A DNA stretch of 64,000 nt, taken from Candidatus Poribacteria bacterium (GTDB lineage: Bacteria; Poribacteria; WGA-4E; WGA-3G). Location: NCBI GenBank assembly GCA_958295945.1, contig OY282386.1:186001-250000 (forward strand). Direction: 5' to 3'. Below, in pieces: positions 22,139 through 30,086 of the stretch. The notes under the pieces are model-generated. The model searched no databases. It worked only from the letters and a program-made list of their open reading frames with translations, and was not told where the DNA came from. The translations under genes and the position numbers were made by a program. The first letter of the stretch is position 1, and every line of letters begins with the position of its first letter.

Positions 22139-22627
22139 TTATTCTTCTGAATTCTCCTGTGATTTTGTCGGCGGGGGTTCTGTGAACGCCTCACCCCGAT
22201 CTGCTGCTTCTTTTCGCCTGCGCTCCCATTCTGCGATCTCGCGATATACTTCTGCTTTACCTTCTGCCTTACCTTCTGCTTTACCTTCTGCTTTACCTTC
22301 TGCTTTGCCTTCTTCTTTAGCAGCGACTTTGGCAGCTTCTATTTTTTTCTCACGTCTTGCTTGAATAAAATCTGATAATAACATCATTAGGTCTATACCT
22401 CCGATTATCATTGCGACGGTTGCCGCACCTACTGGAATAAATGCCGAAATATCTTTGACGACGTTTTGAACGGATACGTGTCCCTTCCAGCCTTGTGTGA
22501 TCTCAAAATCCAGTGCAATCTTTCCGTATATGAGAGCGAAAAGGGAAATTAGAAATAGGGCAACACCTGTTTTTCCTGTTCCCCAGAAATCTCTAACGGC
22601 TTGCCAGAAGGTGTCGAATTTCTTCAA
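22139..22627 (-). CDS. KAEG-repeat two-TM protein, type C
   Basis: 162 residues, a distant paralogue of the type A proteins: FWGTGKTGVALFLISLFALI is TM1 and VGAATVAMIIGGIDLMMLL is TM2. Next come five perfect EGKA repeats and a different tail, REIAEWERRRKEAADRGEAF then TEPPPTKSQENSEE. The tail still fits the pattern W-x-x-R-R-x-E-A-x-x-x-G-E-x-F-x-E-P-P-P of the array proteins. The start is TTG 22627 with GGAGG 6 nt before it. Function unknown; the divergence shows the family was here before the recent duplications at 12.3-15.7 kb. Confidence 0.75.
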   Translation of the reverse strand: MKKFDTFWQAVRDFWGTGKTGVALFLISLFALIYGKIALDFEITQGWKGHVSVQNVVKDISAFIPVGAATVAMIIGGIDLMMLLSDFIQARREKKIEAAKVAAKEEGKAEGKAEGKAEGKAEGKAEVYREIAEWERRRKEAADRGEAFTEPPPTKSQENSEE

Positions 22628-22764: not shown

Positions 22765-22925
22765 GTCAGAACCAGGATTTTCAGGATTGGTAGATTTCCA
22801 GGATTGGGAGGTTGGGGCATCAGAGTTCCATTTATAAGGATAACGCATATTCTGTGAAAGGAAACATGGGAGTAAAAAACTCGTAATCCTGGAAATCTAC
22901 CAATCCTGAAAATCCTGGTTCAGAC
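22765..22925. repeat. GTCTGAACC palindromic repeat (161 bp)
   Basis: The left end is GGTCAGAACCAGGATT and the right end CCTGGTTCAGAC. It is followed by a GGCGGGGCACGGAGACCCCG hairpin (about 22934-22956). This repeat plus hairpin recurs as the boundary of each unit of the nuclease array: 23456-23616, 24159-24319 and 25796-25956. Confidence 0.85.
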
Positions 22926-23035
22926 AAAAAGGATGGCGGGGCACGGAGACCCCGCCCTACAATGGTTGGTGAATGCGTATCACAAGATCAACATTTGCAC
23001 TGCCAAGGACGGTGACTTTGGGCTGCTACATTGGT

Positions 23036-23423
23036 TTACATTTCCGATCCGTTCAATGCCTGTAAGAATGCCTCAACACTTGGTGTGTCAATTGCAGTGA
23101 GATGCAGCTCTGATAATCGATCCAGGTCATGAATAGAATCCATTGCTTCCGCCATAGGTTGTACATCGCTTAGCGGAAAACGTTTTGTAAGCACAGACTG
23201 AATATTCTTGATTGCCATTTCACGGGCACCTTGCTGAACACCTCGTTCAACACCACGCTGAAGGACGATTTCGTAGTAAGGAGATTCTTGCATGATTTCC
23301 TCCGTTATTAGTTTCTCAAAAAAACTTGGGTCATAGACTAAGCCACCTAATAAAGATAAAGCAAAGAACAGCGTTCCACGCGTCTGTGAGTCAACGGGGG
23401 CTGCTTCTATCTTCTCAACACAT
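23036..23423 (-). pseudogene. C-terminal-only Rpn copy 1, with intact internal start
   Basis: The part homologous to the full nucleases begins at CVEKIEAAPVDSQTRG; the whole PD-(D/E)XK domain is missing and replaced by repeat-derived sequence. An in-frame upstream extension to 23539 is just the translated palindrome. GGAGG lies exactly 5 nt before an in-frame ATG at 23293 (MQESPYYEIV), so an 85-residue C-terminal protein could still be made. It carries the RGVERGVQQGARE tetrapeptide-like helix. Several substitutions (PMAEAMDSIHDLDRLSELHL) make it the most diverged copy, so it is older or evolving freely. Confidence 0.65.
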
Positions 23424-23726
23424 TTGTCACGATTTTGTAAGTCCACATTGGCCTTGTCAGAACCAGGATTCACAGGATTGGTAGATTTCCAGGATTGGGA
23501 GGTTGGGGCATCAGAGTTCCATTTATAAGGATAACGCATATTCTGTGAAAGGAAACATGGGAGTAAAAAACTCGTAATCCTGGAAATCTACCAATCCTGA
23601 AAATCCTGGTTCAGACAAAAAGGATGGCGGGGCACGGAGACCCCGCCCTACAATGGTTGGTGAATGCGTATCACAAGATCAACGTTTGCACTGCCAAGGA
23701 CGGTGACTTTGGGCTGCTACATTGGT

Positions 23727-24126
23727 TTACATTTCCGATCCGTTCAATGTCTGTAAGAATGCCTCAACACCAGATGTTTTGACTGCTGTCCGATGTAGTT
23801 CTGTCAAATGATCAAGGTCTTGTATAGATTCAAGCATACGTACCACTGGTTGCACATCGCTCTGTGGAAAACGCTCAGTTAGCACAGAAACTATATTCTT
23901 GATGTTGGTTTCGCGGGCACCTTGCTGAACACCTTGCTGAACACCTCGTTCAACACCACGCTGAAGGACGATTTCGTAGTAAGGAGATTCTTGCATGATT
24001 TCCTCCGTTATTAGTTTCTCAAAAAAACTTGGGTCATAGACTAAGCCACCTAATAAAGTTAAAGCAAAGAACAGCGTCCCACGCGTCTGTGAGTCAACGG
24101 GGGCTGCTTCTATCTTCTCAACACAT
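23727..24126 (-). pseudogene. C-terminal-only Rpn copy 2, with intact internal start
   Basis: The same breakpoint as copy 1, with the nuclease domain absent. The internal start is ATG 23996 with GGAGG 5 nt upstream, giving 89 residues including a duplicated GVQQGVQQG repeat. The C-terminus TSGVEAFLQTLNGSEM is intact. Identical breakpoints in copies 1, 2 and 4 indicate one ancestral truncation followed by duplication rather than three independent events. Confidence 0.65.
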
Positions 24127-24429
24127 TTGTCACGATTTTGTAAGTCCACATTGGCCTTGTCAGAACCAGGATTCACAGGATTGGTAGATTTCCAGGATTG
24201 GGAGGTTGGGGCATCAGAGTTCCATTTATAAGGATAACGCATATTCTGTGAAAGGAAACATGGGAGTAAAAAACTCGTAATCCTGGAAATCTACCAATCC
24301 TGAAAATCCTGGTTCTGACAAAAAGGATGGCGGGGCACGGAGACCCCGCCCTACAATGGTTGGTGAATGCGTATCACAAGATCAACGTTTGCACTGCCAA
24401 GGACGGTGACTTTGGGCTGCTACATTGGT

Positions 24430-25299
24430 TTACATTTCCGATCCGTTCAATGCCTGTAAGAATGCCTCAACACCAGATGTTTTGACTGCTGTCCGGAGTA
24501 GTTCTGTCAAATGATCAAGGTCTTGTATAGATTCAAGTGCATGTACCACTGGTTGCACATCGCTCTGTGGAAAACGCTCAGTTAGCACAGACTGAATATT
24601 CTTGATTGAATTTTCACGTGCACCTTGCTGCATTAATTGTTCAATGAAGGGAGATTCTTGCATCATTGCCTCCGATATAAGTTTTTGTAAAAATGTAAGG
24701 TCATGGGCTAAACTACTCAACGTTGTTAAAGCAAAGAACAGCGTCCCACGCGTCTGTGAGTCAACGGGGGCTGCTTCTATCTTCTCAACACATCTTTCCA
24801 ACCATACTTCCGTGTTCATACCCTCTGGCGGTTTCATCAAAGGCGTAAAAGGTAGCAATCCAACCGATGCCGCTTCCAAAAACGATTCCCCATCTAAATC
24901 CGCCAGCCGAATGACTTGATACCTATGCTGCAATCCGAATTCATCATTTCCATAACTATAACCACCCGGGTCATTCACTCCGGCCTTTGGACTGAGATAT
25001 ATCACCACTGAATACACAGGAAGTTCATGACGCAGCAGGAGTTCACTTGCATAAGCAAGGACGCGTAACGGCATCGGTTTATCTCTACTATCCTCTGTTT
25101 GCACCTCTATATGTAGAAGGACTGTCTCATTGTGCAATAGCACCTTAAACGTCATGTCATTGCGATGCACCTTTACCCGTTGTTGTTCGGTGTCCAGTGT
25201 CTCTAAAACTTGGACATCGGACGTGCCAAAGGATAACATTGCGAACTCATCGGCGTAACGGTCCATCAAATGCTTAACGATCTCATCATATTGTGCCAT
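24430..25299 (-). CDS. Rpn-family recombination-promoting nuclease / putative transposase, full copy A
   Basis: 289 residues. The N-terminal 165 residues form a PD-(D/E)XK domain: D48 in VHRNDMTFKV and E65-x-Q67 in LLHIEVQTED are the probable active-site residues, followed by YASELLLRHELPVYSVVIYL. The C-terminal part begins ERCVEKIEAAP and includes LMQQGARENSIKNI and a conserved AFLQALNGSEM end. The family (PDDEXK_2, Rpn) includes E. coli RpnA, a DNA endonuclease tied to recombination and phage defence. No strong Shine-Dalgarno sequence lies near ATG 25299, while a strong one lies inside the gene. Compared with copy B, the segment from SSLAHDLTFLQKL to SPFIEQL is diverged, as if converted from another donor. 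Confidence 0.82.
   Translation of the reverse strand: MAQYDEIVKHLMDRYADEFAMLSFGTSDVQVLETLDTEQQRVKVHRNDMTFKVLLHNETVLLHIEVQTEDSRDKPMPLRVLAYASELLLRHELPVYSVVIYLSPKAGVNDPGGYSYGNDEFGLQHRYQVIRLADLDGESFLEAASVGLLPFTPLMKPPEGMNTEVWLERCVEKIEAAPVDSQTRGTLFFALTTLSSLAHDLTFLQKLISEAMMQESPFIEQLMQQGARENSIKNIQSVLTERFPQSDVQPVVHALESIQDLDHLTELLRTAVKTSGVEAFLQALNGSEM
24661..24673 (-). promoter_or_regulatory. Internal ribosome-binding site and start within full copy A
   Basis: GGAGG (24673-24669), 5 nt, then in-frame ATG 24663 (a second ATG at 24666). It would give a 77-residue protein, MQESPFIEQLMQQG to NGSEM, equal to the C-terminal domain. The same arrangement is kept in all five copies. Confidence 0.5.
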
Positions 25300-25430
25300 G
25301 CTGTGTGTTATGCCTCGATTTTCGGGTGTTTTATTGATTATACTTGATGAGAGACGGGTTTGTCAAGGGAAATTTCGGACAGAACTAAAGAGGAGGGGTG
25401 CCAACGTTTAACTATAAACATATCGTCCCT

Positions 25431-25763
25431 TGTAGTTCTGTCAAATGATCAAGGGCTTGTATAGATTCAAGTGCATGTACCACTGGTTGCACATCGCTCT
25501 GTGGAAAACGCTCAGTTAGCACAGAAACTATATTCTTGATGTTGGTTTCGCGGGCACCTTGCTGAATACCTTGCTGAATACCTCGTTCAACACCACGCTG
25601 AAGGACGATTTCGTAGTAAGGAGATTCTTGCATCATTGCCTCCGATATTAGTTTCTCAAAAAAACTTGGGTCATAGACTAAGCCACCTAATAAAGTTAAA
25701 GCAAAGAACAGCGTCCCACGCGTCTGTGAGTCAACGGGGGCTGCTTCTATCTTCTCAACACAT
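25431..25763 (-). pseudogene. Rpn copy truncated at both ends
   Basis: It has the same upstream breakpoint as copies 1 and 2 and also lacks the last about 25 residues: after DHLTELQG the sequence runs into the AACTATAAACATATCGTCCC repeat and stops at 25412. The internal GGAGG-ATG (25633) remains. It lies 113 nt upstream of the start of full copy A. Confidence 0.7.
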
Positions 25764-26066
25764 TTGTCACGATTTTGTAAGTCCACATTGGCCTTGTCAG
25801 AACCAGGATTCACAGGATTGGTAGATTTCCAGGATTGGGAGGTTGGGGCATCAGAGTTCCATTTATAAGGATAACGCATATTCTGTGAAAGGAAACATGG
25901 GAGTAAAAAACTCGTAATCCTGGAAATCTACCAATCCTGAAAATCCTGGTTCTGACAAAAAGGATGGCGGGGCACGGAGACCCCGTCCTACAATGGTTGG
26001 TGAATGCGTATCACAAGATCAACATTTGCACTGCCGGGAACGGTGACTTTGGGCTGCTACATTGGT

Positions 26067-26960
26067 TTACATTTCCGATCCGTTCAATGCCTGTAAGAAT
26101 GCCTCAACACCAGATGTTTTGACTGCTGTCCGGAGTAGTTCTGTCAAATGATCAAGGTCTTGTATAGATTCAAGTGCATGTACCACTGGTTGCACATCGC
26201 TCTGTGGAAAACGCTCAGTTAGCACAGAAACTATATTCTTGATGTTGGTTTCGCGGACACCTTGCTGAACACCTCGTTCAACACCACGCTGAAGGACGAT
26301 TTCGTAGTAAGGAGATTCTTGCATGATTTCCTCCGTTATTAGTTTCTCAAAAAAACTTGGGTCATAGACTAAGCCACCTAATAAAGATAAAGCAAAGAAC
26401 AGCGTCCCACGCGTCTGTGAGTCAACGGGGGCTGCTTCTATCTTCTCAACACATCTTTCCAACCATACTTCCGTGTTCATACCCTCTGGCGGTTTCATCA
26501 AAGGCGTAAACGGTAGCAATCCAACCGATGCCGCTTCCAAAAACGATTCCCCATCTAAATCCGCCAGCCGAATGACCTGATACTTATGCTGCAATCCGAA
26601 TTCATCATTCCCATAACTATAACCACCCGGGTCATTCACTCCGGCCTTTGGACTGAGATATATCACCACTGAATACACAGGAAGTTCATGACGCAGCAGG
26701 AGTTCACTTGCATAAGCGAGGACGCGTAACGGCATCGGTTTATCTCTACTATCCTCTGTTTGCACCTCTATATGTAGAAGGACTGTTTCATTGTGCAATA
26801 GCACCTTAAACGTCATGTCATTGCGATGCACCTTTACCCGTTGTTGTTCGGTGTCCAGTGTCTCTAAAACTTGGACATCGGACGTGCCAAAGGATAACAT
26901 TGCGAACTCATCGGCGTAACGGTCCATCAAATGCTTCACGATCTCATCATATTGTGCCAT
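26067..26960 (-). CDS. Rpn-family recombination-promoting nuclease / putative transposase, full copy B
   Basis: 297 residues. The first 190 residues are almost identical to copy A (D48, E65-x-Q67 present). The segment after TRGTLFFAL follows the C-terminal-only copies (LLGGLVYDPSFFEKL, EEIMQESPYYEIVLQRG) with a RGVERGVQQGVRE repeat. An internal GGAGG lies 5 nt before ATG 26324 and would give an 85-residue C-terminal product. The 5-prime flank (about 26961-27110) is almost identical to that of copy A at 25300-25430, so whole units were duplicated. Probably a DNA nuclease; target unknown. Confidence 0.82.
   Translation of the reverse strand: MAQYDEIVKHLMDRYADEFAMLSFGTSDVQVLETLDTEQQRVKVHRNDMTFKVLLHNETVLLHIEVQTEDSRDKPMPLRVLAYASELLLRHELPVYSVVIYLSPKAGVNDPGGYSYGNDEFGLQHKYQVIRLADLDGESFLEAASVGLLPFTPLMKPPEGMNTEVWLERCVEKIEAAPVDSQTRGTLFFALSLLGGLVYDPSFFEKLITEEIMQESPYYEIVLQRGVERGVQQGVRETNIKNIVSVLTERFPQSDVQPVVHALESIQDLDHLTELLRTAVKTSGVEAFLQALNGSEM
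26322..26334 (-). promoter_or_regulatory. Internal ribosome-binding site and start within full copy B
   Basis: GGAGG (26334-26330), spacer AAATC, in-frame ATG 26324. This spacing is better than anything found before the full-length start at 26960. Confidence 0.5.
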
Positions 26961-27071
26961 GCTGTGTGTTATGCCTCGCTTTTCGGGTGTTTTATTGATT
27001 ATACTTGATGAGAGACGGGTTTGTCAAGGGAAATTTCGGACAGAACTAAAGAGGAGGGGTGCCAACGTTTA

Positions 27072-27415
27072 ACTATAAACATATCGTCCCTACGGGACTG
27101 AAGAGGGTTTTTGCATCTAAATATTCCTTAAGTGGACACATATTGGGCGGGGTTTCCCTGCCCGCCTATTACCGAATTACCGAATTAATAAATTAATCTT
27201 CGGACAGGTTGTGGTACAGGACGCACAATCTGGAAGAATGTGGGACAAGGACGCACAATCTGGCAGAATGTGCTACCAGAATGTGAGACAAGGACGCACA
27301 AGCTGGCAGAATGTGGGACAAGGATAACGCCTATTCTTTGAAAGTCCACATGGGAGTCCCAAACTCACAAACTGAAAATCTAAAAACCCGTGAAAATCAT
27401 GGTTCAAACAAAACG
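27072..27415. repeat. Repeat patch upstream of the ThuA-like gene
   Basis: 27072-27103 is an inverted copy of the CAGTCCCGTAGGGACGATAT hairpin repeat. 27145-27167 is a GGGCGGGGTTTCC motif. 27210-27325 holds four imperfect units of GGACGCACAATCTGGCAGAA, period about 33. 27326-27410 is a degenerate relic of a GTCTGAACC palindrome. No gene is seen in 26961-27488. Confidence 0.65.
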
Positions 27416-29407: not shown

Positions 29408-29743
29408 TTAAAATGGAATTGAGAATTCAATCTCTGATGCGGTGTTGTATGCCGGTTTTCCACGCACAACTATTTCTACATCACAATCCAATTTTCTTAT
29501 GAGTGAAAAGAGATAATCAATAGAAAAACCATCAAGCAATCCATCAAGCAACATAGACAGTTCCGACTGGTTAAGATCAAGGATTTTAGCTGCATCTTCA
29601 TGTGTGAGTTCACTCTCGGATACAATACCTTTAATAATCAATGCCAGACGCGTCTTTGCAAGATATTCCTCAGGATTAGGTATCTCTAAATCCTTAAATA
29701 TGTTACCACTACCTTCTTCAACGCTAATTATCTCTTTAGACAT
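29408..29743 (-). CDS. HigA-like XRE-family antitoxin
   Basis: 111 residues with a helix-turn-helix: TRLALIIKGIVSESELTHEDAAKILDLNQSELSMLLDG. It is the DNA-binding antitoxin partner of the HigB-like toxin just upstream. The start is ATG 29743, with GGAGAG before it, overlapping the toxin stop by 8 nt. The antitoxin normally binds the operon promoter and represses it (family knowledge). Confidence 0.85.
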   Translation of the reverse strand: MSKEIISVEEGSGNIFKDLEIPNPEEYLAKTRLALIIKGIVSESELTHEDAAKILDLNQSELSMLLDGLLDGFSIDYLFSLIRKLDCDVEIVVRGKPAYNTASEIEFSIPF

Positions 29744-30086
29744 TGTTTCTCTCCGATTCAGCATGCTGTCTTGCTATATTTAAACGTCTACGAATCAAAT
29801 CTATTTCCTTCTTTGGTGTCTTAATCCCTTGTGTTGATTTCTTTTGAAAACTGTGAAGCACATAAATAAGCGAACTCAATTTCAAAACAAATACTGTCCG
29901 ATAGGTGTTACCTTTATAGTCTGTGACAATCTCGTATACGCCAGATAATCCGCGTAATGGTTTGGTGTTACCGGGCATTTCACCGCCCTGTATCTCCTCC
30001 AATGTGTAACCTATTTTTTTTCTAACAGCAATTGGAAAATCTATTAACCTCTTTTTTGAGTCTCCAACCCAGAAAACAGACCGCAT
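29736..30086 (-). CDS. HigB-like (RelE/Gp49 family) toxin
   Basis: 116 residues matching the phage-derived Gp49-like/HigB family: VFWVGDSKKRLIDFP, GYTLEEIQGG, KPLRGLSGVYEIVTDYKG, YRTVFVLKLSSLIYVLHSFQKKS and GIKTPKKEIDLIRRRL. These toxins are RNA endonucleases that cut mRNA on the ribosome. The toxin-first order with a short overlap into the antitoxin gene is usual for higBA. Confidence 0.88.
   Translation of the reverse strand: MRSVFWVGDSKKRLIDFPIAVRKKIGYTLEEIQGGEMPGNTKPLRGLSGVYEIVTDYKGNTYRTVFVLKLSSLIYVLHSFQKKSTQGIKTPKKEIDLIRRRLNIARQHAESERNNV

Follow-up and report, generated by a model that had tools for sequence, protein, structure and literature searches.

A divergent Rpn-like nuclease family in Candidatus Poribacteria with a conserved internal start for a putative nested inhibitor

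The DNA considered here is a 64,000-nucleotide (nt) stretch of Candidatus Poribacteria bacterium (GenBank assembly GCA_958295945.1, contig OY282386.1, positions 186,001 to 250,000 of the forward strand), referred to below as the window, whose minus strand carries an array of two full-length genes (FL1 and FL2) and three nuclease-less copies (A, B, and C). We propose, as the likely reading, that each full-length gene encodes an Rpn-like nuclease (L) and, nested within it, its inhibitor (S), and that the segment comprising S and its Shine-Dalgarno sequence (SD) has been copied into stand-alone genes. The features that carry this proposal are a conserved internal start, the placement of promoters, homology to Rpn proteins, and the stand-alone S genes themselves; translation of S, inhibition of L, and phage defence are what we infer.

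Conservation of the Internal Start

In all five copies, GGAGG lies exactly 5 nt before an in-frame ATG (at 26324, 25633, 24663, 23996, and 23293 on the minus strand for FL1, A, FL2, B, and C respectively), as a first-pass annotation of this DNA had claimed. The predicted S products are 85, 73, 77, 89, and 85 amino acids (aa) long in the same order, which bears out its range of 77-89 residues for the four copies with complete 3' ends. Since all five copies stem from recent tandem duplication, they amount to roughly one observation and prove little alone. Our homologue set consisted of 113 non-identical full-length sequences from the same genome (34 matches) and from relatives of the same family (3-53 matches each); most of the set, the GTDB homologues, was fetched via the nuclease motif [GA]L[LIM]PF[TA]PLM, which is blind to the internal start, and control genes were taken from 400 kb of sampled stretches of the same genome.

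GGAGG-N5-ATG/GTG is present at the aligned position in 109 of the 113 homologues, compared with the same GGAGG-N5 context at 4 of 1635 in-frame internal ATGs of control genes, a difference that excludes chance. The aligned start codon is ATG in 108 homologues, GTG in four, and TGG in one, so that all four Met-to-Val changes use GTG. At codon -4 the third base is G in 112/113 sequences, though eight different residues occur there (S, P, T, L, Q, R, K, M). GAG occupies codon -3 in 109 sequences, every Glu at this position being encoded by GAG vs. 38% GAG among the Glu codons of these genes. In a synonymous-constraint scan over 297 columns, which used 29 representatives with <65% identity, codons -4 and -3 ranked as the top two (29.1 and 28.1; third 12.6). 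The synonymous signal has a Poisson-binomial P of 5e-16, and of 3e-5 after thinning to <45% identity, where the internal start motif is retained in nine of ten homologues. This constraint at codons -4 and -3, together with the GTG-only substitutions, indicates at the level of aligned codons that the internal start is under nucleotide-level selection for translation. The same codon test rules out that GGAGG arose by chance or from codon bias.

More distant homologues, from other families and orders of the same phylum, also carry an SD at the matching site (spacing 5-8 nt), and an internal SD start was found too in a TIGR01784-type protein of the same genome. One paralogue (L024, C1:3840980-3841906) has TGG in place of the ATG and neither an internal SD nor a start, while its S region and repeats remain; it is the sole aligned full-length paralogue of this genome in that state.

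Start of the Long Form

The full-length starts at 26960 (FL1) and 25299 (FL2) had been described as lacking such a ribosome-binding site, and indeed no SD precedes either, the closest GAGG being 13 nt off; a perfect TTGACA-N18-TATAAT ends 37 nt upstream of each. Among the homologues, none has GGAGG at its full-length start, and any SD is found at only 1 of 108 such starts vs. 119 of 255 control genes. A leaderless-type promoter, in which a TTGACA/TATAAT pair stops 6-7 nt short of the full-length ATG, is present in most relatives (19 of 28 representatives, compared with 8 of 243 control genes). Given the usual distance from the -10 element to the transcription start, this placement predicts that the long form is carried on a leaderless mRNA in most relatives. 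The clade of the window has a shifted promoter, with a perfect TTGACA-N18-TATAAT ending 34-43 nt upstream, still without an SD. The leaderless placement is not phylum-wide: in other families, the upstream regions of distant relatives differ, and some of them are SD-like.

Promoter-like sites within 100 nt upstream of S were found in only 12 of 112 cases, and an internal promoter for S as a general rule was rejected on this count. Since such sites are rare, S is probably translated from the same message as the long form.

Relationship to Rpn Proteins

The long proteins are distant relatives of Rpn that share its catalytic pattern and its type of 4-residue repeats, as several comparisons support. 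Aligned over the whole length with E. coli RpnA/B/C/E, hhalign gave E=2.7e-5 (probability 74), and with the Rpn-type proteins L163/L164 of the same genome added, E=8.3e-10 (probability 96.5), the reversed control giving E=0.24. Residues D48, E65, and Q67 of FL1 are invariant in 19 paralogues, and FL1 D48 and E65-x-Q67 align with E. coli RpnA D63 and E82-x-Q84. Among the 19 paralogues the best TIGR01784 match has E=7.7e-6, and no match in this genome exceeds the curated cut-off. The AlphaFold2 (AF2) model of FL1 has a predicted local distance difference test score (pLDDT) of 87, and the best Foldseek matches to it have E of at least 0.035, including weak ones to R.SwaI, EcoO109I, and BamHI. DUF4351 (PF14261) matched 1 of 12 S sequences, at E=0.004. 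Neither L nor S matched any Pfam family above cut-off, PDB sequence searches returned no usable relative, and PADLOC gave weak matches only.

The predicted structure of S is one long helix carrying 4-residue repeats and three short helices. Most differences among S copies amount to 4, 8, or 16 residues of the GIEQ-type repeats inside this helix: copy B has the repeats of FL1 plus one, copy C has the same number as FL1 with a different middle, and FL2 is 8 residues shorter than FL1. Very long GIEQ/GIER runs, with S up to 130 aa, occur in uncultured Poribacteria (L097, L087, and L093 of OY282383.1), together with an array that holds two stand-alone S genes and has more full-length copies close by.

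Organization of the Array

From 5' to 3' on the minus strand (27030 to 22765), the array consists of FL1, copy A, FL2, copy B, and copy C, with the following features.

26998-27027, minus: promoter-like TTGACA-N18-TATAAT of FL1, ending 37 nt before the ATG, without SD
26067-26960, minus: FL1, full-length gene (297 aa; open reading frame (ORF), distant Rpn homology, AF2 pLDDT 87), Rpn-like nuclease domain and C-terminal S domain
26330-26334, minus: GGAGG of the FL1 internal start, motif kept in 109/113 homologues
26067-26324, minus: S product of FL1, 85 aa, predicted long helix with 4-residue repeats and three short helices
25412-25768, minus: copy A, nuclease remnant and S, with DNA from upstream of FL2 fused on in place of the lost 3' end
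25639-25643, minus: GGAGG of copy A
25412-25633, minus: S part of copy A, 73 aa
25337-25366, minus: promoter-like TTGACA-N18-TATAAT of FL2
24430-25299, minus: FL2, full-length gene (ORF), 289 aa
24669-24673, minus: GGAGG of the FL2 internal start
24430-24663, minus: S part of FL2, 77 aa, repeat region 8 residues shorter than that of FL1
23727-24131, minus: copy B, nuclease remnant and intact S (ORF, sequence comparison)
24002-24006, minus: GGAGG of copy B
23727-23996, minus: S part of copy B, 89 aa, one repeat more than FL1
23036-23428, minus: copy C, nuclease remnant and intact S (ORF, sequence comparison)
23299-23303, minus: GGAGG of copy C
23036-23293, minus: S part of copy C, 85 aa, mosaic, with the S middle from a different allele
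25796-26066, 24159-24429, and 23456-23726, minus: near-identical repeat elements separating the copies
22765-23035, minus: interspersed repeat element after the last copy, 90 matches genome-wide with this query
24225-24252, minus: weak promoter-like TTCACA-N16-TATAAA inside the element upstream of copy B (inferred)
25862-25889 and 23522-23549, minus: the same putative weak site in further elements
24329-24350, minus: terminator-like hairpin after FL2
25968-25985, 23626-23647, and 22935-22956, minus: similar terminator-like hairpins

The nuclease-less copies had been reported to keep the internal start, and each does, retaining about 45 codons of nuclease remnant before it (junctions at 25768, 24131, and 23428). 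The tandem copies have spacings of 691, 703, and 1637 nt, with flanks 97-99% identical, and are separated by a repeat element of 271 bases that is likewise 97-99% identical between copies. This element is a palindromic interspersed repeat of the CCAGGATTTTCAGGATT type, with a terminator-like GGCGGGG..CCCCGCC hairpin. The palindromic repeat at 22765-23035 and its genomic matches probably mediated the duplications of the array. Copy A is probably broken; its last residues are joined to a copy of the FL2 upstream region. The S frames of copies B and C are complete; these two are intact and arose, with the broken A, by tandem duplication.

It is possible, though we hold it to be the less probable account, that the three nuclease-less copies of the window are functionless debris of recombination between interspersed repeats, the internal start of the full-length genes being real all the same. 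The repeat units are 97-99% identical with the same junction, the 3' end of copy A is lost, and B and C stand behind terminator-like hairpins with no strong promoter ahead of them; a promoter scan ahead of A, B, and C found only weak candidates, in or beside the repeat element (the TTCACA-N16-TATAAA sites fall outside the scan list because their -10 ends in A). Against this account, B and C keep complete S frames with GGAGG-N5-ATG, and copy C is strongly diverged from FL1 (22.5 synonymous and 26.5 non-synonymous changes) yet still open. Stand-alone S genes with other breakpoints in many loci, described below, also argue against it.

Two neighbours of the array were noted. A HigBA-like pair, another toxin-antitoxin module, lies 2.5 kb away (29408-30086, minus), in which a Gp49-family protein (PF05973) comes first and an HTH_37 protein (PF13744) second. 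The array is immediately followed downstream by a predicted protein with a TTG start (22139-22627, minus), which has a hydrophobic stretch and a GKAE repeat tail; a family search with it gave no match.

Stand-alone S Genes

A search for loci with C-terminal-only neighbours, as the first-pass annotation had suggested, found S without the nuclease part at about 25 distinct places in the fetched loci, with the ORFs kept. Most share the strand of a full-length gene and lie 17-230 nt beyond its 3' side, and they recur independently, within this genome and across relatives, with various breakpoints. The duplication edge is often 10-60 nt above the S start, so that the copied unit is the SD plus S. 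Among 26 stand-alone cases, GGAGG-N5 is present in 17, a partial SD in three, and none in six.

Several paralogues have a broken nuclease with S left open. In the same genome, the nuclease frame is interrupted in L005, L017, and L025/L026 (by an insertion with a stop, a stop codon, or a frameshift), and in L031 most of the nuclease is deleted and S is kept open; L019 has a stop in the nuclease remnant and S is still open. An orphan S-like ORF of TIGR01784 type (L202, C1:2797000-2800000, same genome) is found alone between unrelated genes.

Proposed Mechanism and Its Weighing

In the mechanism that we favor, each full-length gene would encode two proteins in one frame, L, a PD-(D/E)XK nuclease, and the C-terminal S, the latter made from the SD-led internal start on the same message. 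S would share with L its oligomerisation helix and the 4-residue repeats, and most likely binds L and keeps it inactive, as RpnS does in E. coli. L would initiate without an SD, from a leaderless mRNA in most relatives and from a short SD-less leader in the clade of the window, while the perfect SD on S should hold S in excess over L. Repeated duplication of the SD-plus-S segment would then have given rise to the stand-alone S genes.

Several observations weigh against this mechanism or its extension to the window. The Rpn homology is distant, FL1 scoring 15.8 bits against TIGR01784, under the curated cut-off of 52.1 bits, and Foldseek against PDB gave no confident match for L or S. Each of FL1, FL2, B, and C has a terminator-like hairpin after it, and these hairpins separate the copies of the window. 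Pooled dN/dS of stand-alone vs. nested S pairs is about 0.5 (P=2e-6 against 1), which is not decisive, as constraint on the nested copy alone could cause it. Finally, about half of the stand-alone S have a repeat number other than that of the full-length gene beside them. In E. coli, one extra 4-residue repeat in RpnCS abolishes its action on RpnC (Zhong et al., PMC10327210), and some stand-alone S may by the same token not inhibit their neighbour. Other L proteins of the genome may be the targets of mismatched S, or these S may be specificity variants in transit. The earlier picture of an expanded Rpn-type locus in which stand-alone inhibitor copies accumulated is borne out in part: the distant Rpn homology, the selected start, and the recurrence of stand-alone S agree with it, while within the window copy A is probably broken and all three copies stand behind hairpins with no convincing promoter, and the label of inhibitor copies calls for caution where S differ from their neighbour in repeat number.

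We consider it quite unlikely that the internal start is real and selected but that S is a structural or activating subunit of an L complex, in the manner of Cas11d in relation to Cas10d. A conserved start shows no more than a need for S, and a long helix for oligomerisation is predicted in S. Nevertheless, S is kept in copies whose nuclease is broken, which a subunit serving activity only would leave unexplained unless S serves other L proteins, and the homology is to E. coli Rpn, where RpnS inhibits (PMC10327210). That GGAGG and ATG are mere by-products of protein constraint (S/T-E-E-x-M-Q-E-S) and codon bias is hardly credible: E at -3 and M at the start are indeed highly conserved residues, but the -4 residue is free and its codon still nearly always ends in G, Glu at -3 is always GAG despite 38% usage, and the M-to-V changes are all GTG, so that the codon analysis refutes this origin unless the alignment is wrong.

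Comparison with Known Systems

The intragenic C-terminal inhibitor of E. coli rpn genes that the first-pass annotation gave as precedent is published: RpnS was shown to inhibit RpnL (rpnA-rpnE; COG5464, TIGR01784) (Zhong et al., 2023, PMC10327210). The same work already described stand-alone RpnS (ypaA/rpnES and rpnCS), DUF4351 proteins, and tandem rpn arrays (PMC10327210). In both systems L has the catalytic D and E-x-Q (here with a putative PD-(D/E)XK fold), the C-terminal part has its own SD-led start inside the gene and in frame, the first helix of S varies in its 4-residue repeats, and duplication has formed tandem arrays. The Poribacteria proteins differ in that their profile similarity is under curated cut-offs, four helices are predicted in an S of 70-100 aa (vs. 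three in about 49-60 aa for E. coli RpnS), and L is SD-less and mostly predicted to be leaderless, while an SD-like AAGGA lies upstream of E. coli rpnA. Internal transcription starts are reported for E. coli rpn, in contrast to the scarcity of promoter-like sites here (12/112).

As with E. coli stand-alone RpnS (PMC10327210), C-terminal-only copies are found downstream of a full-length gene and have several independent origins, but here a genome holds several of them, a single locus sometimes two or three, and the ancestral GGAGG-N5-ATG is usually carried (17/26). Toxin-antitoxin genes on leaderless transcripts are known from M. tuberculosis (PMC8485053, PMC3898074); in the present family, however, only the long form would be leaderless, the nested short form of the same gene being SD-led. 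In the literature outside subscription journals we found no paper on this family in Poribacteria or on leaderless Rpn. What appears new is the divergent Rpn-like family, the codon-level proof of its internal start, the frequency of stand-alone S, and the pairing of an SD-less long form with an SD-led short form.

Implications

The gene-within-a-gene antitoxin design would reach a divergent Rpn-like family with dozens of copies per genome in uncultured sponge-associated bacteria. An SD-less long form and an SD-led short form suggest a simple means to set, and perhaps switch, the toxin-to-antitoxin ratio. A further idea, rather unlikely in our estimate, is that the gene senses damage to translation initiation, in that loss of SD-dependent initiation would shut off S while L continued to be made, and the nuclease would thereby be released; if this were true, possible triggers would be phage takeover or a toxin that cleaves the anti-SD. 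With many stand-alone S of altered repeat number, antitoxin specificity becomes testable in this family.
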